Of a stretch of 64,000 nucleotides of DNA, positions 4,078-64,000 are shown in pieces. A program made the position numbers and the translations under genes. The stretch covers positions 2,216,914-2,280,913 of the forward strand of contig BAOK01000001.1 in NCBI GenBank assembly GCA_000509225.1, read 5' to 3'. Under the pieces are notes generated by a model. It did not search any database and was not told the DNA's origin. It saw nothing but the letters and a program-made list of their open reading frames with translations. Numbering within the stretch: position 1 is the first letter of the stretch; every line of letters begins with the position of its first letter. Source of the DNA: Parvibaculaceae bacterium Mf 1.05b.01 (lineage in GTDB: Bacteria; Pseudomonadota; Alphaproteobacteria; Parvibaculales; Parvibaculaceae).

Positions 4078-4509
4078 ATGACCATCCCCTATCGTGGTGA
4101 CTGCACCTGCGGCGCTATCTCCGTAGAGATCACCCTGCCAAAACCGATCGACACCTATACGCCGCGCGCCTGTGATTGCAGCTACTGCACACCGCGTGGT
4201 GCAGCCTATCTTTCGGACCCCAGCGGCGCGGTACAGATTTGGGCGCCAAGCGAGAGCGGACTTTGCAAAGAGCGGCAGGGCTCGGAAACTGCAACCATGT
4301 TGCTCTGTGCAGCTTGCAAGGGTCTGCTGGGAGCGGTGTGTGAGATTGAGGGGCGGCTCCTTGGTGCCGTCAATGTACGTACTCTGGAGCGCTATACTGT
4401 AGTTCCACCCGCGCAAACAGTTCACCTCAGCGAACTCGACGCTGACACGAAGGTTCAACGATGGTCTGACCTATGGATGCCATTTCAGGTCAATGTGCTG
4501 GCTGCCTAG
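4078..4509 (+). CDS. GFA/CENP-V family zinc protein
   Basis: This encodes 143 residues. The chosen start MTIPYRGDCTCGAI gives the standard GFA N-terminus, and an in-frame upstream start at 3994 adds only low-complexity sequence. Zinc ligands are visible as CTCG (about residues 9-11), CDCSYC (about 32-37) and CAAC (about 78-81). The family is named for glutathione-dependent formaldehyde-activating enzyme, but most members have unknown substrates. The third cysteine motif is CAAC instead of the usual CxxC-G arrangement after FC. It is a single gene ahead of a MATE exporter. Confidence 0.78.
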   Translation: MTIPYRGDCTCGAISVEITLPKPIDTYTPRACDCSYCTPRGAAYLSDPSGAVQIWAPSESGLCKERQGSETATMLLCAACKGLLGAVCEIEGRLLGAVNVRTLERYTVVPPAQTVHLSELDADTKVQRWSDLWMPFQVNVLAA

Positions 4510-4650
4510 GGCGACCTTTTCACAGCGACATAACCTCAATGCCTCTTTCTTTGCGCGGGTGCCTAACGTTTATTGCCTAACTTCAACTTTGAAAGCTATA
4601 ACTTTCGAATCCGAAGCCAGTCAATAAACACAAGAAAGCACCCGGACTCA

Positions 4651-10290: not shown

Positions 10291-10835
10291 TCGGTGGACA
10301 TTATGCAACGGCGCTGGTGCCCTACACACGGCTGGAACGGAAAGCCCCACTCTGGCTGTTGCTCAGCGCGGCGATGCTGGTGGACTTTGTGCTGATTAGC
10401 CTCGTGGCGAGCGGCGTGGAAACGATGGTCCCTGATGGGGAGACGCCGCCGGATATGCGCTATAGCCACGACCTTCTGCCCGTCCTTGGGCTTGCAACTG
10501 TCGCGAGCCTCGCCATCTGGGCGGTGACGCGGCGCCGGGTCCTTGCGCTTTGGGTCGGGGCGCTCATCCTGCTGCACGAACTGGCGGATGTGTTTTCAGG
10601 ATATCAGCACAATGTGAACGGGCCTGACTCACACGCGTTTGGACTGAATAATTATATGACCAATCCGGCTCAGGCTTTGGGGATTGAAGCGCTGCTCATC
10701 GTTGTCTGCCTTGCCTACTATCAATGGCATGAGCGACGGGCGGGCCGGTCTTTTGAAACCTGGAAATCAGTGGCGCTGTTCTTTGTCCTGACGGCGCCGA
10801 CAACGCTGGCGTTTGGCCCGCAGATAGCGGGATAG
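10287..10835 (+). CDS. Integral membrane protein, metal-dependent-hydrolase-like
   Basis: This encodes 182 residues with about five membrane helices. It starts MIGGHYATALVPYTRLE, and His5, a conserved DF after the second helix (LVDFVLISLV) and HELADVFSG resemble the His/Asp pattern of membrane-bound predicted metal-dependent hydrolases (YdjM/DUF457-like). That assignment is tentative. The start overlaps the upstream 28-residue peptide by 4 nt. Confidence 0.6.
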   Translation: MIGGHYATALVPYTRLERKAPLWLLLSAAMLVDFVLISLVASGVETMVPDGETPPDMRYSHDLLPVLGLATVASLAIWAVTRRRVLALWVGALILLHELADVFSGYQHNVNGPDSHAFGLNNYMTNPAQALGIEALLIVVCLAYYQWHERRAGRSFETWKSVALFFVLTAPTTLAFGPQIAG

Positions 10836-29021: not shown

Positions 29022-29354
29022 GTCTTACCTCTGCCCGTTGATGCGAGTAATACAGTCAAGTTCCACGGGTCTTGCTGATCGTACACTTTTCGCCCGTTGT
29101 GCAATTTAAGCATCAAGGGAACGCTTTACCTATCCCGCTTGTTCCATGTCTATGAGAGGAAACCTGCTGGCGCCGCCGAAATGCATAGAGTGCCGAGAAC
29201 GATTCGACACCATCACTCCGAAAGTGTTGATCCTGCATCCTGGTACCAAGGCACGTCAGGTGACGGGAGCGATGGAAGGACATGTTGGGGAAAGTGGAAA
29301 TGGTGCCCGGGGGCGAGCTCCAACGGTTTTTATTTGTCAGTGACTTACGAGCCG

Positions 29355-29409
29355 GTGGGACACTTTTATTTTCTAGTGTTTACTTATGTTTATGACGAAA
29401 GTGTCCCAC
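29355..29409. repeat. 12-bp perfect inverted repeat
   Basis: GTGGGACACTTT (29355-29366) and AAAGTGTCCCAC (29398-29409) are perfect inverse complements, separated by 31 nt. On the plus strand the right arm runs into TTTTTTT, so it could be a terminator or a protein-binding site near the prophage border. Confidence 0.6.
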
Positions 29410-29568: not shown

Positions 29569-29813
29569 GGTGACAAAGGTCACAAAGGTGACCGCGTTGT
29601 TTTTAAAGGGAAATTTCGAATGTCAAAAGGTCACCAAAAGGTAACCGGTTACCTTTTTGAAGGGTCACCAGCTCAAAAAAATTAGTGAATCATTTCAATA
29701 GGTTAGAAACGGTTACCTTTTGGGTTACCTTTGGTCACCTTTTAGGGGTCACCACGAACCTCAACAATATCAATAAGTTAGGTGCCATTTTCGGCGCGGT
29801 GACCCGGGTTACC
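29569..29813. repeat. Array of GGTNACC palindromic heptamers
   Basis: Within 245 bp there are eleven GGTNACC heptamers plus two GGTNAC partial copies. The left copies have A-runs in front and the right copies mostly have T-runs behind. The switch falls at a 22-bp perfect palindrome, 29636-29657 (AAAAGGTAACCGGTTACC plus TTTT). Iteron-like binding arrays of this kind occur at origins and partition sites. No protein from the window is shown to bind it. Confidence 0.75.
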
Positions 29814-29931
29814 CTTTTCCGGAGGGGGTGGGGTACTTTTTGTCCCAGCGGGTGGTTTGACCGTGAATGAGCTGCCTCTCGGCACATCAAATCCACACCC
29901 AATTTCGCGGAAGTGTCAGCGACAAGCGATC

Positions 29932-30201
29932 GGTCCCATTCCCATTGGCCTGCCAGTGTTTATCGCCACTGCAGTTGAAGAAAAAACGATCCACAAAGCA
30001 CACAGGCGAGGCGGGGAGTTGAGAGCGCAGTAAGAGGGAGACGAAAGGCTTGCCGAGAAACATATCGACTGGGCAAAACGCGACATCGCAGACCTGGAGT
30101 CCGGCTTCCAAAGACCTTTCACTTTTGATGATGTAGCTATCATTACGGAGCGCGTTAAGCGAACCGGGCTCACAGCCGCCTTTCGATCGTGCAGCATATG
30201 A
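29932..30201 (+). pseudogene. Broken reading frame, probable phage gene remnant
   Basis: One frame reads GLPVFIATAVEEKTIHKAHR, a TAA at 30031, then EGDERLAEKHIDWAKRDIAD and GFQRPFTFDDVAIITERVKR to a TGA at 30199. The second half has protein-like composition but no start codon. I do not recognise the family. Confidence 0.45.
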
Positions 30202-30307: not shown

Positions 30308-31300
30308 CTAGTAATCAGTGATGGGTTCAAAGCCAAAGTGTTCACCCATCATGTTGTGCGCTAAGTCCGCAGCTCTGAGCAAACGGCGATCGGCATGCTC
30401 CAGTTTCTTGTTGTACAAGGTCATGTTCATGGCGCCTTCGTGAACAAAACTATTTCGATCACCCACTAGCCTTGTAATCTGGTCGAAAAGCAAAATTCGC
30501 TTTCCCTTGGAATTCTTCTTCCAGCAGCCTTCGAAGTCCAAAGACTTGTCAAGAAGTTGGAAGTTTCGTGAAATCACATCTGGTCGCTGAAAAGCGAACT
30601 GGTTGGCAATAATTTCCTCTGCGCTGCGGCCTTTCTCTAGGCTGAAACGTGTCTTCGTTGGGTTCAAATTCGATCTTACTCGGTCCGAAATGCCTAGCTC
30701 TCGGAGAGATGCAACAAACAGGCTGCGAAAGTAGTCTTCCCAAACAGCGATCAAATATGGAAGTTGCATGTTATTCGAGAACAACAGCGGATTGAGATCA
30801 TCTAGAAAGGGTATTTCGTGCGGACCGTCGAGCGCGATATCGCCTTCAAACTTGCGAACCATCCTATAACGTCTTGCCAAACCAACAGCGTTTTCAAACC
30901 GCCAACGTGCGATGAAGCATCCTGAAGCAATGGGCGAGACTCTTTCATAGTCAGTTGGAAAAAACCTGTTTCTTCCGTAATCACTGATAAAGTGCCCTGC
31001 AGTAAAATCACGATATACGCGCAGGGTTTCATTAAGCTTTCGAACATCCCAGAAGCTGCCGCCGTACCGTGAGCGTGAGTGAACTGACAGACCTTCTTCT
31101 GTTTGATAGATGCCCAGCTCCACACCCGTCCATGATTTGTAATCCTCTTTTTCGTACCAAATGTAGCTTCCGACATGGCCCTCTATGTCTCTCCAGTCCT
31201 TGACTTTTTGGTACCCGAGAAGATCAGCGATTCTTCTAAGCTTCCTAAGTGAAGTTCCATCCGGAAAATAATTCGTCGCCTCGCGAGCCAAGACTTGCAC
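30308..31300 (-). CDS. Hypothetical protein with HEPN-like C-terminal domain
   Basis: This encodes 330 residues with a GTG start 5 nt after the stop of the gene upstream, so the two are coupled. The N-terminal half (about 1-170) is not recognised. The C-terminal half is helical: LPYLIAVWEDYFRSLFVASL, then IRLVGDRNSFVHEG-type sequence containing R-N-S-F-V-H, which fits the Rx4-6H active site of HEPN RNases, and a final helix HADRRLLRAADLAHNMM. HEPN proteins cut RNA in toxin-antitoxin and abortive-infection systems. Assignment is by motif and helix order only. It sits with an Abi-alpha gene at the left end of the prophage. Confidence 0.6.
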   Translation of the reverse strand: MQVLAREATNYFPDGTSLRKLRRIADLLGYQKVKDWRDIEGHVGSYIWYEKEDYKSWTGVELGIYQTEEGLSVHSRSRYGGSFWDVRKLNETLRVYRDFTAGHFISDYGRNRFFPTDYERVSPIASGCFIARWRFENAVGLARRYRMVRKFEGDIALDGPHEIPFLDDLNPLLFSNNMQLPYLIAVWEDYFRSLFVASLRELGISDRVRSNLNPTKTRFSLEKGRSAEEIIANQFAFQRPDVISRNFQLLDKSLDFEGCWKKNSKGKRILLFDQITRLVGDRNSFVHEGAMNMTLYNKKLEHADRRLLRAADLAHNMMGEHFGFEPITDY

Positions 31301-31305
31301 CCGTT

Positions 31306-31845
31306 TTATTCAACTTTACGGCCATGTTCTGCAGAGCTCGAAATGGATGTTGGCCAACAATCTGCAGCTTCAAGCAAGAGCTCCGACCATACAGTAAACT
31401 CTATCAGAAACCCTCTGTCATCTTGCTTACGATATGAACAGATGATTGCGCCGCAAGCAGCCCCGTCTTCTTCCACCCACCAATAGCGCGCAAAGAAATG
31501 TACTATTTGGCTGCACAGTTCCTTGATACCTACTACAGCCCGCTGAGGGCTTTCCCACTCAAAGTCTATGTGGCCGGGCGCATCTCTCCATATTGAGGAT
31601 TTCTCTGGAGCCTTACTGCGATAGGAAATTAGATCCAAGGATTTTGATGCAAAAACGTCAGTGACCTTGCGATCCTCGATGAGTTTGCGAAGAACTACAG
31701 CCGAGTAAAACAGTGATCGCTCAAGGTCGAATGGAACCTCTTCGCACGGCCATTTACCAGCATCGCGCATTGTTGCCGCGTGCTTTCGAAGCTCGGTCCG
31801 CCATGGAGCGCTCTCGTACATATTGCTATTCTTGCAATATTTCAT
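31306..31845 (-). CDS. Hypothetical protein coupled to HEPN-like gene
   Basis: This encodes 179 residues from ATG 31845, with AGAAG upstream; the frame is open to a TTG at 31869. No family is recognised. Features: an early helical segment FDLERSLFYSAVVLRKLIEDRKV, then a middle stretch rich in aromatic residues, WRDAPGHIDFEWESPQRAVV, and CSQIVHFFARYWWVEEDG. The stop is 5 nt before the HEPN-like gene. If the partner is an RNase toxin, this could be its antitoxin or a sensor. Confidence 0.55.
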   Translation of the reverse strand: MKYCKNSNMYESAPWRTELRKHAATMRDAGKWPCEEVPFDLERSLFYSAVVLRKLIEDRKVTDVFASKSLDLISYRSKAPEKSSIWRDAPGHIDFEWESPQRAVVGIKELCSQIVHFFARYWWVEEDGAACGAIICSYRKQDDRGFLIEFTVWSELLLEAADCWPTSISSSAEHGRKVE

Positions 31846-32002
31846 TTTAACTTCTACTGCCTTGTCCAAAGGCTGCGAAAGACCGCTTCCCGTCCTTCTA
31901 TACCATCTAATGCACTGCAGCGGAGGGCTCGAAGCCGCCGTGACAGCTCCCTGACTGGCAGCCCAGAATTCACGGCTTAACTATTAGTTGCCCAACCTGC
32001 GT

Positions 32003-32701
32003 TCACCGCTCCTGGCTATCATTTACAGCGTAAAAGAAATCAACGCCCAAGCCGGTGACAGCAAATAGCTCAGTATCCTTGTAGGAGGATAGAGAATGGT
32101 CTCCTATGCTGACGCCGCCGGTTACAACTCCTGGCTTGAACAAACCCAGGCGGATCAGGTTGCGCACAGCGTTCTCAACGACTCCCCCAGGAAGACTGGT
32201 ATGTTCTACTATCTTGTCCCTCACGAAAAGGGTTCGATCTGTACGCTTCTTATCGGCCAAATGTTCCCTAACGATTAGATCGAGTATCTGAGAGTCAATC
32301 GGCTCCATGTCCGCGAGCATGGAAGTGAAATTTCGGCGTAACGGTCTGTCGTAAGTGGCATCACGCGCGTTGGCTAGCAAGTTCGCCCATTTTTCCTGAA
32401 GACTCGGGTCTTCTTCAACAGTTGCCTTCTCTATAATCGGCAAACCAAATGCGACTGGCACATGTCGTTTCGCTACACCACGCTCTCGCAGCTTTTGATC
32501 AACAGCCTGTTGCAAAGCAATGGCCTTCTCCAGTCGATAATAGGCAAGCTTATCGCCAACAAGGCCGACGGAATTAGAAACAACGTTACCAAACATGCCA
32601 TCCAAAAACGAGGCGAGGTTCTTTACCGTTTCAACTGAAGTATTGGCCGCCTCAGCGATGTCTTTGGCCTGTTTTCCAATATCGTGGTTTGATTCTGACA
32701 A
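32003..32701 (-). CDS. Abi-alpha (DUF4393) family abortive-infection protein
   Basis: This encodes 232 residues from a TTG at 32701 that has GGAGGTG 7 nt upstream; the frame stays open to 32851 but the extension has no family-like sequence. GLVGDKLAYYRLEKAIALQQ, then RGVAKRHVPVAFGLPIIEKA and EEDPSLQEKWANLLANARD, match the Abi-alpha/DUF4393 pattern, with PIDSQILDLI in the C-terminal part. The founding members are named for abortive infection in Lactococcus; the mechanism is unknown. It is a separate minus-strand gene between two HEPN-like genes in the P2 old/tin position. Confidence 0.75.
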   Translation of the reverse strand: MSESNHDIGKQAKDIAEAANTSVETVKNLASFLDGMFGNVVSNSVGLVGDKLAYYRLEKAIALQQAVDQKLRERGVAKRHVPVAFGLPIIEKATVEEDPSLQEKWANLLANARDATYDRPLRRNFTSMLADMEPIDSQILDLIVREHLADKKRTDRTLFVRDKIVEHTSLPGGVVENAVRNLIRLGLFKPGVVTGGVSIGDHSLSSYKDTELFAVTGLGVDFFYAVNDSQER

Positions 32702-33071
32702 ACTGAGCACCTCCAATAGCAGCTGGCACTCGCCAGATTTTATATGAATGTCCACTGTCGGAGAACAGTCCCAAATTTGCAAATCCCGCTTGCGAAGTAG
32801 AGCTGCCGTCTGACGACAACGCCGCGTCCGGTAAAGAAGGCTCGAAGCCACCGCGTTGTCGTACGGCCCGCGCCCGACTTCAAAGCGGGGTGGAGTCTCG
32901 GTCGACTATAATACCCGAATTAAACTTCCAAAGGGGCGCCTAGTCTATTCGAAGTGCAAACGCCATGACGGCGTGGCAACATGACCAACAAAGAAGCCAA
33001 CACCAGGGATCGAGCCCTGCGTCGGCTACCAACAAAATCTCTGGTAGGGTGCTTGACGACCCAACGACGCT
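32702..33071. other. Intergenic stretch between defence genes
   Basis: This contains the possible N-terminal extension of the Abi-alpha frame (32702-32851) and then sequence in which I see no gene, hairpin or repeat. Confidence 0.3.
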
Positions 33072-33980
33072 TTACGATGTTGGTGGGTCAATCAGTGTCC
33101 AGTCTGTATCGTCCTTGTTAGGGTCAGCACGTTTATCTGGATACTGGCGAACATCGTGCTGCATTCTTCCATTCTCATTGTGACCTATTTCGATGATACG
33201 CGCCTCTTCCCAAAGGCCATCTGGAAACTTTGCGTCGCTGTCTTCAAGAAGCATCTTCATATCGTCAACGCGAATTTCATCTGTTTCGGTCATTCCACTA
33301 CTGGCTCTGTATGTTATTCTCGACGGTGCGCCACCACCAATTCGTGCAACACAGAAACCATCATCGTCGATATTGAAGACCCAACTCCGCAATAGGTCTG
33401 ACTTATCACTGTTGATTCTCTTTACGTCGTCACGAATACGCTCGACCAACGTACACAGCTTGTCAAATCGGCCTGCATCCCACATTCGTTTGGTTCGCTC
33501 ATTCACTAGACGTGCATAATCTTCTCGACCCTTCGGGTCTATGGGATATCGTGCATCAAAGACAACTGCATCCCGAAGGTCGTTAAGAAGACTTCGCTCC
33601 TCACTAATCAAAGCCAAGCCAAGCTCTTCAGCCATTCGAACAAAATCATGCCCGAACACATCCTTCACCGCGTGGCGAAAAACATCTTCCGGGCAATCGC
33701 CATAGAGTTTTACCAAGCCCGCTTTCAGGAAGCTCTCAGCCGCATAACCAACCAACAAGATTGTCGAGCGAGGCGCGCCTTCCAACTTGTACCAGTCCAC
33801 TCCAAAATCTTTCCCGCTGCGTAACCTCTCACCAGTGTTCTGTTTGAACTCTTCCCGATATGTCATCCAGTGTTCCCGCAGGATATCCGCCGAAGCTAGA
33901 TGCCCCTCGCCCGCGTCCAACCACTCCCTCGGGTCAAACAGGCCTTTACTTCTAATGGTTACCTTGGGTTTCCTTTTCAT
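33072..33980 (-). CDS. HEPN-like hypothetical protein, candidate defence gene
   Basis: This encodes 302 residues from MKRKPKVTIRSKG, preceded by AGGAGGA. The order FDPREWLDAGEGHLASADILRE, then STILLVGYAAESFLKAGLVKLYG, FGHDFVRMAEELGLAL and DLRDAVVFDARYPID is that of HEPN-type helical domains (first-helix ladder, A-x-E-x-x-L-K, then an H-D/F-x-x-L helix and R-Y-P). The C-terminal part (about 200-302) is beta-rich and unassigned. It neighbours the Abi-alpha gene and the portal gene. Confidence 0.6.
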   Translation of the reverse strand: MKRKPKVTIRSKGLFDPREWLDAGEGHLASADILREHWMTYREEFKQNTGERLRSGKDFGVDWYKLEGAPRSTILLVGYAAESFLKAGLVKLYGDCPEDVFRHAVKDVFGHDFVRMAEELGLALISEERSLLNDLRDAVVFDARYPIDPKGREDYARLVNERTKRMWDAGRFDKLCTLVERIRDDVKRINSDKSDLLRSWVFNIDDDGFCVARIGGGAPSRITYRASSGMTETDEIRVDDMKMLLEDSDAKFPDGLWEEARIIEIGHNENGRMQHDVRQYPDKRADPNKDDTDWTLIDPPTS

Positions 33981-34145
33981 CAGTCCTCCTACCACTGCAA
34001 CACCGTGTGTCGCTGTGCTATTGCAAATCGTCATTGAAAAAAGGGGAAATGGAACGCCACCCAGGCTGTGGAACAAACGACGCCACAGCACTTACACTCT
34101 TTACCATGAACTTCTGGGAGTCAACGATACCGGCCCAGTTGAGTT

Positions 34146-35165
34146 CTACTTTACTCCCACCCCGGCATCAGCGACATCGATGACATAGTCGTCAAAATCG
34201 ACAACCTCTTCCCCGATCCAGTCATTCACTTCGCGAAAGCGTTGCTGCAACGCCGTTAGTTCGTTGATCACGAAGACCTTGCTCGCCGCTTCAATAGAAC
34301 CAAAGCCGCCTGTATTGCTCGGCACGATGCCCATCAAGGGAGGCGGCACGCGGTGCGCGGCCAGTACATCGTCGCGGGTTGCATTCTTGATGTTGAAAAA
34401 CTCATCCTTTGCGGTGACCTCAGAAATCGGGATGAGCTGCACCCCGTCTTTCTGGCCCCCTGGCGCGTTTAAAAACAGGTTCTTGAAATTGCCGATGCCC
34501 TTCGACTTCTTCAGCTCTTCGCGGATCCTGTCTGCATCTTTCTGTTCAATGTTCGCGTCGTTCAGATAGAGGATGAAACCCGCATGGCTTCCATTCTCGT
34601 AATATTTGCGACGAAAGAGCGTCGCACTTTCATTGAGCCAGGCAGAGTTGAGCGCGGCGAGATATTGCGGCATGCCGTAAATCTCTTGCGCCGGGTCCGG
34701 CTCCAGCAGATGGAAAACCGACCCAGCCTTAAACTGGTGCGTGTCCGCCCAGGATTTCACCCAGAGATAATGATCCGGGTCTTTCATGCGCCTGGTTTGC
34801 AGCGCAGGTGTCGGGCGCAACTTCGCGGAACCACCCAGGCGATTGGCGACATTCTCCAGATAGCAATTGCCAAGAATGAGATAGTCGAGCACCCAGCGGC
34901 TAAAGTCCTGCCTGGACAAAAGGCGGTGCGGCTTAAAGGTGGAGGTGAGGATTGCCTGCTTTAAATGAATGGCCGAGGCATGGTGCGCATTCGCCCGGAA
35001 GCTTTTCACCAATCCCATTTGCGAGATGGGCGGCTCAAAATAGAGCCCATTATCCATGAGCTGGAGATAGTCCATCACTTCCCGGCCGTCGAGCATGGGC
35101 ACCGGATCCCCAAGCGTGAAGACCTCCGCACTTACCTTTGACGCACTCTTGCCTGCATCACTCAT
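34146..35165 (-). CDS. Q: Phage portal protein, P2 gpQ type
   Basis: This encodes 339 residues. Typical gpQ/PBSX portal phrases are FTLGDPVPMLDGREVMDYLQ near the start, GLYFEPPISQMGLVKSFRAN, SRWVLDYLILGNCYLE and ATRDDVLAAHRVPPPLMGI. The portal forms the dodecameric DNA channel at one head vertex. Its start overlaps the terminase stop by one base (TAATG). Both are transcribed leftwards, away from the capsid genes, exactly as Q and P in P2. Confidence 0.93.
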   Translation of the reverse strand: MSDAGKSASKVSAEVFTLGDPVPMLDGREVMDYLQLMDNGLYFEPPISQMGLVKSFRANAHHASAIHLKQAILTSTFKPHRLLSRQDFSRWVLDYLILGNCYLENVANRLGGSAKLRPTPALQTRRMKDPDHYLWVKSWADTHQFKAGSVFHLLEPDPAQEIYGMPQYLAALNSAWLNESATLFRRKYYENGSHAGFILYLNDANIEQKDADRIREELKKSKGIGNFKNLFLNAPGGQKDGVQLIPISEVTAKDEFFNIKNATRDDVLAAHRVPPPLMGIVPSNTGGFGSIEAASKVFVINELTALQQRFREVNDWIGEEVVDFDDYVIDVADAGVGVK

Positions 35166-36967
35166 TAGAAAATCTCCACTGTTGATCTTTTAGGCCTGCC
35201 CGCACTGTCCAAAGACACGATGTCGCCCTGGGCAAGCGCGTGCATCACCGCCCAGGCCTGGTCTGCATGGCCCGTCGTTTCTGTCCGGCTTGCCTGATAG
35301 CTGATCTGTTTTCCGCTTGCCGTGACGGATCGGTGTATGGTCATGAAGGCGTTCGCCATGTCTGTCCATCCAGCATCAAATTCAAAGCGCCCGTTTTCGA
35401 TCACCTGCTTGGCCTTCGCCACCAGCCGGTTCTTCACTTCCACGGAATAGGTAATTTTGAGCGCGCGCGGGTAGAAGCCTTTCACCAGCTCATAGAGCCC
35501 TACCCCCATGCCGCTTGCATCAATGCCAATATGGGTGACGTTGTAGCGCTCGGTGAGCTTTCTGATTTCTTTCGCCTGATGCTCAAAGTTCATATTGTTG
35601 AAGCGCAGCTTCTCAAGCGCGCGGAACTTGCCCCCATCAAGGCCTGGCGGCGCGATTACCACACAGCTTGCATCGTCGCGTGTCCGGCTTGGGTCATAGC
35701 CAATCCAAACCTCTTTATTGCCAAAGGGGCGCTTGCGCACAGGTCGGAAATCGTCCCACGCATACCAGGCATCCACCATGCAGTTTTGAAGGGTCGCCAG
35801 CTTAAAGACGGAATGCGCATCATCAATGAAGACGCACATGAAGAGATTGGCAAAATCGTCCGGCGCATATTCCAGCTTGAGCGCATCAATGTTGAACAGG
35901 TCACAGCCCGCCGCTTCCGCGTCTTCAATGGTGAGCATTTGACGCCACTGCCCATCGGCACACAGCATACCGTCTTTCAGGGCATCATGGCTAAGGTCAA
36001 TCTCAACCTTGTCTTCGTCCGCCCGGCCCTTGTTGAAGTCCCGGCCAGACCAGAAGCCATAGGCCTCATGGCCCAGTGTCGACGGCGTAGAGATATAGGT
36101 CTTGCGCCATTTCTTGTGTGCGGCCATGCCGCTGGCAACCTTGTTAAGGTCTTTGTAGCGCGGTATCCAGAAATACTCATCCACATAGAGGTGACCGTGA
36201 TAGCTCTGGGCTGTACGGCTATTGGTGGACAGGAAATAGAGCGTTGCCCCATTGGGGAGCACAAGCGGGTTTCCCTTCAGCTCTTTGCCGGTCACGTCCC
36301 GCACGAAGTCGATAATGTAGGACCGGAACACTTCGGCCTGGTTGCGCGAGGCAGAGAGGAAAATCTGATTATCCCCTGTCTCCAGGGCATCCATGAAGGC
36401 TTCGCGGGCGAAGTACCATGTGGCCCCTACCTGGCGGGATTTCAGGATATTGCGAATGCGCTGATGGCGGTTTTCATTCCAGAGCCGTTGATAGTCAAAC
36501 AGCGGCGCTTCCCAGGCGGTCACCAGGGCCGCTTCTTCTTCGTCGGTGAGCGCGTTCTTGTGTTTCTTTCCTTTCCGCTTCTTGTTGCGATTTTTCACAT
36601 TGGGGTTCAGGTCTGCCTCGTTCCCACCTTGTTGGTACTTCTCGACACGGGCCATGCGCTCAAGCTGTTTGCCAAGCGCCTCAATCTCCTTGTAGTCGCC
36701 GGGTGTTTTTTCTTCCTTGTCCACAAGCAGGCACAGGCGCCGGTCAATGGTCGACCCGACACGCTCATGCACCGGGGCTTCACGCCAGCCATCCCGGCGC
36801 TTCCAGCTATCAATGGTTGAATAGCTTTTCTTTAGCTGCTTGGAGATTTCAGCAACCGTATAGCCCTGCCAGAAAAGCTGGGCCGCGCGTTTGCGCAACA
36901 GCACTCCGTTCGTGTTGTCAGTGCCAGATTTTGGGGCAGGCTTTGTCTCATTATCGGTCGTTTCCAT
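35165..36967 (-). CDS. P: Terminase large (ATPase) subunit, P2 gpP type
   Basis: This encodes 600 residues. An N-terminal HTH (GYTVAEISKQLKKSYSTIDS) is followed by an ATPase with KSRQVGATWYFAREA (Walker A variant) and LYVDEYFWIPRYKDL (Walker B and following loop). A RNase-H-fold nuclease has GYDPSRTRDDASCVV and HIGIDASGMG. It packages DNA into the prohead with gpM. It diverges from the scaffold gene O across a dyad at 37013. Confidence 0.95.
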   Translation of the reverse strand: METTDNETKPAPKSGTDNTNGVLLRKRAAQLFWQGYTVAEISKQLKKSYSTIDSWKRRDGWREAPVHERVGSTIDRRLCLLVDKEEKTPGDYKEIEALGKQLERMARVEKYQQGGNEADLNPNVKNRNKKRKGKKHKNALTDEEEAALVTAWEAPLFDYQRLWNENRHQRIRNILKSRQVGATWYFAREAFMDALETGDNQIFLSASRNQAEVFRSYIIDFVRDVTGKELKGNPLVLPNGATLYFLSTNSRTAQSYHGHLYVDEYFWIPRYKDLNKVASGMAAHKKWRKTYISTPSTLGHEAYGFWSGRDFNKGRADEDKVEIDLSHDALKDGMLCADGQWRQMLTIEDAEAAGCDLFNIDALKLEYAPDDFANLFMCVFIDDAHSVFKLATLQNCMVDAWYAWDDFRPVRKRPFGNKEVWIGYDPSRTRDDASCVVIAPPGLDGGKFRALEKLRFNNMNFEHQAKEIRKLTERYNVTHIGIDASGMGVGLYELVKGFYPRALKITYSVEVKNRLVAKAKQVIENGRFEFDAGWTDMANAFMTIHRSVTASGKQISYQASRTETTGHADQAWAVMHALAQGDIVSLDSAGRPKRSTVEIF

Positions 36968-57489: not shown

Positions 57490-57542
57490 GAAAAGCTATT
57501 TCTCGCTTGCAAGCAAGTGTTAGTCGTGACACATTTTGTGCT
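57490..57542. promoter_or_regulatory. Lysogeny operator/promoter region
   Basis: The 53 nt between divergent repressor and early genes contain CTTGCAAG (perfect 8-bp palindrome) and imperfect inverted repeats GTGTTAGTCGTGACAC and TGTGCTATGTTTAACACA (the latter extends into the next gene). These are likely repressor binding sites covering both promoters. Confidence 0.6.
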
Positions 57543-60502: not shown

Positions 60503-61678
60503 TTACTTGCTTTGCGCGCCAATGCGGCTGAAGACAGCATCAATCCAGCTCGGCATGGGTTCTTCCTCGCCCTGCTGCATGCTAGGTCTAAAGATGGCCT
60601 TCAGGATCAGGTGCTTGTCGTCTTCAGTCAGACGCTCGTTTGCATTGAGTGCCAAATACGCCTTTGTCATAACCTCTCTTTCGGCAGCATCGACCTCAAG
60701 AGTTCGATGCGTTGCATGAGATTTACTCGCAATACGAATGAGCCACACACCGATCAACCCGGGGACAACAAGCACAGCAAACGAAAGCATCAGGGCATCA
60801 GGCTGCACCTGCTCCCATTCAAGAACTTTGCTGGCATAGAGGGGTATCCCGACCATCGCCACGACACAGAGGCCTACGAAGAACCCGAGCGACCACTGCC
60901 GATCGGTTTGGTGCGCATCTCGTCTGACAGACCAATATTCCTGCGGCTCTTTAAGTTCGAGGGCTGTGTGAACAGACTCGACAGTACTTTTTCGGGCGTC
61001 CTCAGCGGCAACTTTACAGGCCTCGTCAACAGTCTTCTGAAGATCCTCGTGCCATTCGTCAGCTTCTGCCAGTTGAGTTTCCAGCGTCGTTTTAGCCTTA
61101 TCTGCAGCACTCTTTGCTTCATTCAAGTTTGTGACAATGTTTGGAGCGGCTGCTTGAATTGCTTTGGCATCCGCTGTAGCACTTCGAAGATCGCGGACTG
61201 CATCATTTGCAGAAATGGTAAGCGACGATACTTCAGGTGCGTTGATTGTGATCAAGAATGTGCCAACGAGCTGCCTTGTCTCCGTCGATGCAGCGGCAAC
61301 GTTCGCTGTCTGCTGTACGTCCTCAAGATTTATGGCCAACGTCGACGTTCGAGTCGGTCTAAGCCCGCTCCCATACTCGTCCAAGACTTTCCAATACGCT
61401 TCCGGGGAACGCTCCCCTCCTCCCAGCAAGGAGTGGAAGGGATGATCATTCTCCAAGATGTCCAGGCCCTCTTTCAGGTAGTCGATAAAGCTCTGCCGCA
61501 GCGCCTCACCTTTGATCACCTGTGTAATCTCACCCCAGAACGCTCTCTCGCTTACCACGAACATTTCAATGTCGTCGGGTTTTTCAAATTTGTAGCGATT
61601 TCCACTGTTGTCAGAAAATATGCTGCGATTTCCAGCATTCGGTCCGTCGTCTGCCATCTTGCTCGCGTCCAATCTCAT
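60503..61678 (-). CDS. DUF6161-like membrane protein, reverse-strand cargo
   Basis: This encodes 391 residues (a start at residue 8, 61657, is preceded by GCGAGCAAG and may be the real one). An N-terminal soluble domain (FVVSERAFWGEITQVIKGEA) is followed by a long coiled coil (about 160-245, with DKAKTTLETQLAEADEWHED), two membrane helices (about 275-320) and a C-terminal tail AEREVMTKAYLALNANERLT. I associate this layout with DUF6161, with moderate confidence. It is the second reverse-strand insertion in the early operon. Confidence 0.6.
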   Translation of the reverse strand: MRLDASKMADDGPNAGNRSIFSDNSGNRYKFEKPDDIEMFVVSERAFWGEITQVIKGEALRQSFIDYLKEGLDILENDHPFHSLLGGGERSPEAYWKVLDEYGSGLRPTRTSTLAINLEDVQQTANVAAASTETRQLVGTFLITINAPEVSSLTISANDAVRDLRSATADAKAIQAAAPNIVTNLNEAKSAADKAKTTLETQLAEADEWHEDLQKTVDEACKVAAEDARKSTVESVHTALELKEPQEYWSVRRDAHQTDRQWSLGFFVGLCVVAMVGIPLYASKVLEWEQVQPDALMLSFAVLVVPGLIGVWLIRIASKSHATHRTLEVDAAEREVMTKAYLALNANERLTEDDKHLILKAIFRPSMQQGEEEPMPSWIDAVFSRIGAQSK

Positions 61679-63191: not shown

Positions 63192-64000
63192 ATGATGGAT
63201 GATGCTCTCCGCCAAGAAGTCACGCCTCGCCTGAAAGCCGACTATGGGTTTAAAGCCCGGGCCGACTGGCTGCAGGAAGGCAAGTGTCCGGCTTGTGGCA
63301 AGAAAGAGCTCTTCACGAGTGCCAACAGCCCCTGGGTGCTGCGCTGTGGACGGCAGAACAAATGCGGGGCGGAGTTCAGCATTCGCGATCTCTATCCCGA
63401 CCTCTTCCAGGACTTTAACAAGCGCTATAAGCCGAGCCCCAAAGAGCCCAATGCGACGGCTGATGCCTATATGAAGTTGATGCGCGGGCTCGACCCCACA
63501 CGCATGGGTGGGTTCTACCGGCAGGAGAAGTTCTGGCACCCGCAAGCAGAAGGTGACAAGGGAAGCGCCACGGTGCGCTTTGATATTGACCGGGCGAACG
63601 ACATTTACATGGAGCGGCTGATTGAGCCCGTCACCATTCGTGCCTCAGACGGCACACTCACCACCCGCAAGGCGCACTTTAACGGCTCCTATCGCGGGCT
63701 CTGGTGGCAACCGCCGGGCATGGAAATTAATGATGGCGATGAAGTGTGGCTGGTGGAAGGCTGCATTGACGCCATCTCTCTTTTCCTCAATGGCCAAAAA
63801 GCTGTCGCAACGCTTACCTGCACCAACTATCCCGCCCGCAAGCTTGGCGAACATGGCGCTACCAACGTCAAATGGGTATGGGCGCTCGACAATGACAAGG
63901 CGGGCCGCAAATATAACGTCAAACATGCACGCACCATGCGGGATGCGGGCATACCCCAAGTCTTCTGCGCGCTCATTCCCCAGAAGGGGCGCACCAAAAC
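63192..64000 (+). CDS. Toprim-type phage primase/helicase (cut by window end)
   Basis: The first 269 codons are visible. A zinc site CPACGKKELFTSANSPWVLR with a later CG-x-x-x-x-CG (CGRQNKCGAEF) matches the zinc ribbon of phage primases. A toprim domain follows: DEVWLVEGCIDAISLFLNGQ, then WALDNDKAGRKY (D-x-D). It synthesises primers for phage replication, perhaps as a fused primase/helicase. The start (two ATGs in a row) has GGGGTGGCGG upstream. The gene continues beyond 64000. Confidence 0.88.
   Translation, partial: MMDDALRQEVTPRLKADYGFKARADWLQEGKCPACGKKELFTSANSPWVLRCGRQNKCGAEFSIRDLYPDLFQDFNKRYKPSPKEPNATADAYMKLMRGLDPTRMGGFYRQEKFWHPQAEGDKGSATVRFDIDRANDIYMERLIEPVTIRASDGTLTTRKAHFNGSYRGLWWQPPGMEINDGDEVWLVEGCIDAISLFLNGQKAVATLTCTNYPARKLGEHGATNVKWVWALDNDKAGRKYNVKHARTMRDAGIPQVFCALIPQKGRTK

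Follow-up and report, generated by a model that had tools for sequence, protein, structure and literature searches.

The alpha protein of phage P4, an element related to P2, is a fused primase-helicase that works on iterons, those of ori1 and crr. The available part of PMC6092414 mentions the P4 ori site and presents PICI origins as AT-rich DNA with a set of iterons on either side. According to the accessible portion of PMC7581432, the C-terminal domain of the SaPI Rep helicases reads iterons that lie just 3' of their own gene, and the C-terminal domain of Cch2 binds a putative origin.

The repeat array analysed here has, like SaPI and PICI iteron origins, two repeat sets that flank AT-rich DNA; its own face inward. 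It belongs to a P2-like prophage that looks intact, in which attL lies to one side of it and a P2-type cos sequence to the other (for P2 and Smp131 the cos sequences are given in the available part of PMC3931495), and is very probably the replication origin of that prophage, of the iteron type and bound by the phage's own primase-helicase. The prophage is integrated at tRNA-Phe; its other end, at L007:5299, corresponds to position 67885 in the numbering of the window (the whole stretch of DNA that was analysed, 64,000 nucleotides), and the integrase and an intact 891-residue primase lie at that far end. The features are the following (positions are those of the window).

29301-29315, no strand: attL core, a direct repeat of the tRNA-Phe 3' end at the other prophage end (L007:5299)
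29355-29409, no strand: inverted GTGGGACACTTT...AAAGTGTCCCAC, also present beside attR and apart from the array; candidate integrase arm sites
29569-29813, no strand: the entire array (11 exact GGTNACC together with GGTGACA and GGTCACA), put forward as replication origin
29569-29593, plus strand: left outer block, three sites at 9 bp spacing, AAAGGTNAC direction
29629-29669, no strand: central block of four sites, with the 22-bp palindrome (29636-29657)
29670-29710, no strand: AT-rich spacer, 73% AT (46% in the part of the prophage within the window)
near 29693-29705: IHF-like site with one mismatch to the consensus, in the AT-rich spacer
29711-29753, minus strand: right block, four sites, three with T-runs, GTNACCTTT direction
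29768-29780, plus strand: exact match to the IHF consensus, TATCAATAAGTTA
29798-29813, minus strand: right outer pair of sites, 9 bp spacing
30005-30023, plus strand: cos-like GGCGAGGCGGGGAGTTGAG, 191 bp from the last array site
34146-35165, minus strand: P2-type portal protein (gpQ)
35165-36967, minus strand: P2-type terminase large subunit (gpP)
63192-64000, plus strand: primase-helicase of phrog_1139, 891 residues, continuing beyond the window as far as L007:3281; put forward as initiator

Three further prophage genes, in the stretches 30308-34091 and 60503-61678, may serve in defence. The one at 32003-32851 encodes a protein with an Abi_alpha domain, the product of that at 30308-31300 matches HEPN weakly, and that of the gene at 60503-61678 is AbiZ-like.

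A scan of the window finds 11 exact GGTNACC heptamers at 29587-29813 and the perfect 22-bp palindrome AAAAGGTAACCGGTTACCTTTT. The preliminary description had placed eleven such heptamers around this palindrome in a region starting at 29569; the count and the palindrome hold, and the first exact site is the one at 29587, since the sites at 29569 (GGTGACA) and 29578 (GGTCACA) are one-base variants with a changed last base. The symmetry that it had seen, with A-runs on the left sites and T-runs on the right, is confirmed: along the array the copies of AAAGGT point +++++----, and the extended half-site AAAGGTNAC faces inward from either side. The density, which it had put beyond chance, is borne out by the 24 GGTNACC of the window, 11 of them inside the array, against 9.68 expected from 100 dinucleotide shuffles (the largest shuffle having 20). 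No other palindromic heptamer in the window exceeds four copies per 500 bp, and a search of the host genome shows the array to be the sole cluster of its kind.

The closest relative, H029, whose primase is 94% identical, carries the array at the same place. The two sequences differ by 11 changes between 29561 and 29825: one falls on the 66 fixed site positions, two on the 11 central N and eight on the 188 other array positions. The layout recurs in Smp131, Halomonas phage 4908 and Dobby, with GGTAAC or GGTAAT as the repeated motif and the same order of parts (outer pair, central block bearing a palindrome, AT-rich spacer, right block, outer pair). The preliminary description had named absence from related elements as a point that would tell against it; the array is present in such elements. 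A literature search, with most subscription journals outside its scope, returned no description of the array in P2-like phages.

To place these likenesses in a wider frame, 54 assembled records were scanned for 6-mers clustered within 330 bp, with a score of -8.5 or lower counted as an array (simulated Markov nulls reached at best -7.8 in one run and -8.1 in another). Arrays are present in 24 of the 26 phages that have both a phrog_1139 primase and a complete portal side, four of them weak (-9.2 to -9.6); the two phages of this set without a passing array are G004, at -8.2 just below the threshold, and H289, which has none. The arrays are dense, usually inverted repeats of a phage-specific motif and lie mostly near cos or directly after the primase gene. 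The 28 records left out of the 26 were judged by reading, and most are fragments or end at or near the portal; ZY1 is treated as cut, since its record ends 1.6 kb beyond the portal. Also outside the 26 are G010, H145, H184a and H184b, in which arrays are found and the portal side is missing or split, and six elements, likewise returned by the phrog_1139 search, that on a reading of their sequences appear to carry P4-type primases; in five of these, 27-43 bp separate the array from the end of the gene, and in the sixth the two overlap. The short records L010 and L024 were covered by one scan only, and G439, which has stops in the primase, and one stretch fall outside the survey.

Six P2-like phages of the gpA type with homologous terminases (P2, Fels-2, ENT90, Cartapus, ST13-OXA48phi12.1 and M16-3) have no array, their best scores being -6.1 to -7.2. 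It is because relatives with the same primase carry a likewise-built array and gpA-type P2 relatives do not that the array looks like an origin. A search of the prophage itself for a gpA homologue gives at best a match of 23 residues (E 0.62); ENT90 and M16-3 match clearly.

Some other repeat clusters came to light in the same records. KL3 (-8.6; L119:1518-1758, beside a CHC2 primase gene) and KS14 (-8.7; L123:29662-29959), both with another primase type, have borderline clusters. The viral record G018 carries, at the contig end with which it starts (L054:21-341), 16 same-direction copies of GGGACA and ATAACG, unlike the inverted arrays. A second dense palindromic array, of AACGTT, is found in two elements of one genome, with 12 and 8 copies (L100, about 4386-4622; H184a as oriented, 10361-10513), some 2-3 kb downstream of the primase arrays.

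The surveyed arrays are also enriched in IHF sites. Called with WATCAANNNNTTR, which we take to be the IHF consensus, exact sites number 12 in 28 arrays, against 0.7 expected from AT-matched windows of the same phages, and 11 of the 28 arrays have at least one. An iteron-type origin, one of the possibilities that the preliminary description had raised, is well supported by this enrichment, by the survey and by the absence of arrays from the gpA-type phages.

The proposed initiator is a TOPRIM/AAA+ protein. Foldseek matches its structure model (mean pLDDT 85, pTM 0.61) best to 5dgk, the Cch helicase of SCCmec (E 7e-14), and 8tch, the initiator of SaPIbov1 (E 1e-11), and its residues 793-891 are predicted to follow the winged-helix order of elements, with confidence uneven across the wing region. 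By prediction it is thus an initiator helicase of the Rep/Cch fold with a C-terminal DNA-binding domain. It belongs to phrog_1139 and not to the P4 type; an iterated profile missed the six P4-type proteins. Once the phage is circular, about 2.3 kb with attP in between separate the array from the primase stop, so that it is not directly 3' of the initiator gene, and in the sequence read beyond the window the 3' end of the primase gene is free of GGTNACC repeats. The idea that the array is what is left of the 3' end of a replication gene that bore repeats there therefore fails for this prophage, whose primase gene is intact; as a lead it was a good one, the arrays of other viruses abutting or overlapping primase 3' ends (see below).

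Which protein reads the array is addressed by two phages with nearly the same structural genes. Phi3 and JFK are 99.4% identical in terminase, 100% in capsid and 98.6% in portal, against 56.8% in primase, and their array motifs are different: GGAACA occurs in 16 copies in phi3 and none in JFK, GGAAGG in none and 11, respectively. BIBS67 and phita81A/2 share the phi3 primase (99.7-100%) and the phi3 array motif. With terminases so nearly identical, and primase and array motif different, the terminase is disfavoured as reader; the pair does not by itself prove the case for the primase, because primase gene and array adjoin and could swap together. Covariation was examined over 24 of the 28 arrays (the final run without ESSI2 and with H184a). 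Across these 24 phages motif similarity correlates with the identity of primase segments (0.47-0.55), portal (0.46) and terminase (0.44). The partial correlations are 0.347 for the primase C-terminal domain given the portal and 0.327 for the portal given the C-terminal domain, and the terminase, too, keeps a significant one; since those of primase and portal are both significant, correlation by itself does not tell which protein is the reader.

These figures bear on the improbable alternative that the array is a packaging signal, with terminase or another phage factor binding repeats beside cos and thereby selecting phage DNA. The covariation with portal and terminase suits it, and so does the near-constant distance between array and cos, 170-192 bp in 10 of the 12 cos-side phages though the neighbouring genes differ (in our prophage the interval is 29814-30004). 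Yet the array is not found wherever there is a P2-type terminase (witness the six gpA-type phages), different arrays go with the all but identical terminases of phi3 and JFK, and in the divergent branch of phi3, JFK, H184a and H184b it is the primase gene that the array follows, not cos, beginning 22-91 bp past the primase stop in all four. The steady distance is best read as that of an origin which, in the branch of our prophage, would have moved to a near-constant place beside cos. It is, together with a covariation that does not single out one protein, the main point against the origin reading, to which cumulative GC skew, with no consistent switch at the array, lends no support.

Dense palindromes with IHF-like sites are also known from partition sites, and the preliminary description had accordingly considered a partition or regulatory array. 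That the repeats form a centromere, or a repressor or activator array controlling partition or early genes, is nevertheless very unlikely: no partition gene was recognised among the subset of prophage proteins scanned, the short gap between repressor and early genes (57490-57516) contains no GGTNACC, and the array persists among phages in which the adjoining genes vary. The idea gained no support.

IHF-like sites are found at attachment sites as well, and the array is about 250 bp from the attL core, so that it might be thought to consist of the attP arm sites to which integrase or excisionase binds. One would hardly expect this, given that another inverted motif, AAAGTGTCCCACTTT, flanks both attL and attR and is a better candidate, the array being at one prophage end only, and that phages with more similar integrases do not have more similar array motifs (r = -0.02, 21 phages). 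In Smp131, moreover, the array is more than 2 kb from the attP region as given in the available part of PMC3931495.

The notion that the array is a mere DNA shadow of a repeated K-V-T peptide can be dismissed, for although open frames of 50-66 codons span it, non-silent codon changes relative to H029 exceed silent ones in all three small frames (7:1, 11:2 and 9:3), which argues that it is not a coding repeat, two of the three frames lose their stop codon in H029, and the central N accounts for two of the three changes that strike exact sites.

Taking the array as an iteron-type origin, one may picture its use as follows. The prophage would excise and circularise, and the primase-helicase, with its TOPRIM primase, AAA+ helicase and C-terminal winged helix, would bind the GGTNACC half-sites, which run inward from left and right around the central palindrome and the AT-rich spacers. 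IHF would bend the spacers, allowing two oppositely oriented helicase assemblies to load; these would open up the AT-rich DNA and prime theta replication in both directions. This would provide a concrete origin candidate for P2-like phages that replicate without gpA (the search for gpA having covered this prophage only), and motif swaps of the phi3/JFK type would offer a handle on how an initiator's DNA-binding domain reads its repeat.

The argument can also be run in reverse, from DNA alone. A scan of viral contigs for three clustered GGTNACC reported 90 stretches, of which 80 loci were listed and all of these examined. Twenty-two of the 80 have at least six GGTNACC in 300 bp and are not tandem; two are inside ORFs and were set aside. 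Among the listed loci, 8 of the 20 remaining non-coding dense arrays, some of the 20 being near-duplicates, are at most 36 bp from the 3' end of a large ORF or overlap it slightly. Seven of the eight abutting ORFs were scanned, and all seven are of primase or helicase types: Prim-Pol with D5_N, Prim-Pol alone, VapE-like (two), RepB-primase with DUF5906, DUF5906, and phrog_1139-like. The eighth, L184, is taken to be L135 in reverse, since the two agree in ORF lengths and spacing. Ten further array records were searched (L138 being outside the primase search): one, L159, has a phrog_1139 primase, and its array bears the 22-bp palindrome of our prophage; five, L159 included, have a DUF5906 match, two of these over the curated cut-off; and none of the ten has a VapE-like match. 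In a separate scan of genome contigs the matches listed look by eye to be mostly repeats. Many of those at L221-L298 are on Prevotella MAG contigs, with GGTNACC triplets on many contigs of the same assemblies; these are perhaps dispersed repeats.

A scan for CCTNAGG gave four dense cases that are not tandem; ORFs enclose three of these, and the other adjoins a terminase. The corresponding scan for GTGNCAC found 23 dense non-coding arrays (L390-L469), of which three have a helicase or VapE-like gene next to them, and for that reason GTGNCAC is not a neutral control; these arrays being similar, origins made of palindromic heptamers probably form a wider class than GGTNACC. One GTGNCAC array, at L440:5813-6079, abuts a VapE-like/Prim-Pol gene.

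We offer as a tentative thought that GGTNACC is a recurrent origin word, shared by several initiator families (TOPRIM/AAA+ phrog_1139, Prim-Pol with D5_N, VapE-like, and RepB-primase with DUF5906), and that one P2-like branch moved its origin and fixed it about 180 bp from cos. If the first part holds, the winged helices at the C-termini of the helicases in this superfamily would have kept an old, or repeatedly evolved, preference for GGTNA(C); if the second does, the start of replication would be coupled with packaging. The reverse scan would in addition provide a way to find such origins from DNA alone in other viruses with primase-helicase initiators.

Among the systems that this array may be set beside, P2 itself has the same structural and packaging genes, but nicks its origin inside gene A, for whose product the prophage has no homologue. 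P4 is alike in its fused primase-helicase and iterons, and the six surveyed elements with P4-type primases carry arrays by the gene end; the prophage primase is of another family, phrog_1139, whose iterated profile is without the P4-type proteins. The Cch and Cch2 proteins of SCCmec supply the top fold match, 5dgk, and a C-terminal domain that reads origin repeats (Cch2; accessible portion of PMC7581432), although the repeat differs. The SaPI and PICI origins differ in that the array here belongs to a full P2-like phage, has palindromic heptamers, a central palindrome and IHF sites, lies away from the initiator gene at a near-constant distance from cos, and would be served by a primase of the TOPRIM type fused to the helicase. 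They resemble it in having AT-rich DNA between two sets of short repeats (PMC6092414, available part), in the place of the array after the initiator gene in part of the family (phi3, JFK, H184a and H184b), and in an initiator helicase that binds DNA through its C-terminal domain (PMC7581432, accessible portion), such a domain being predicted here for a primase whose modelled fold matches SaPIbov1 Rep.
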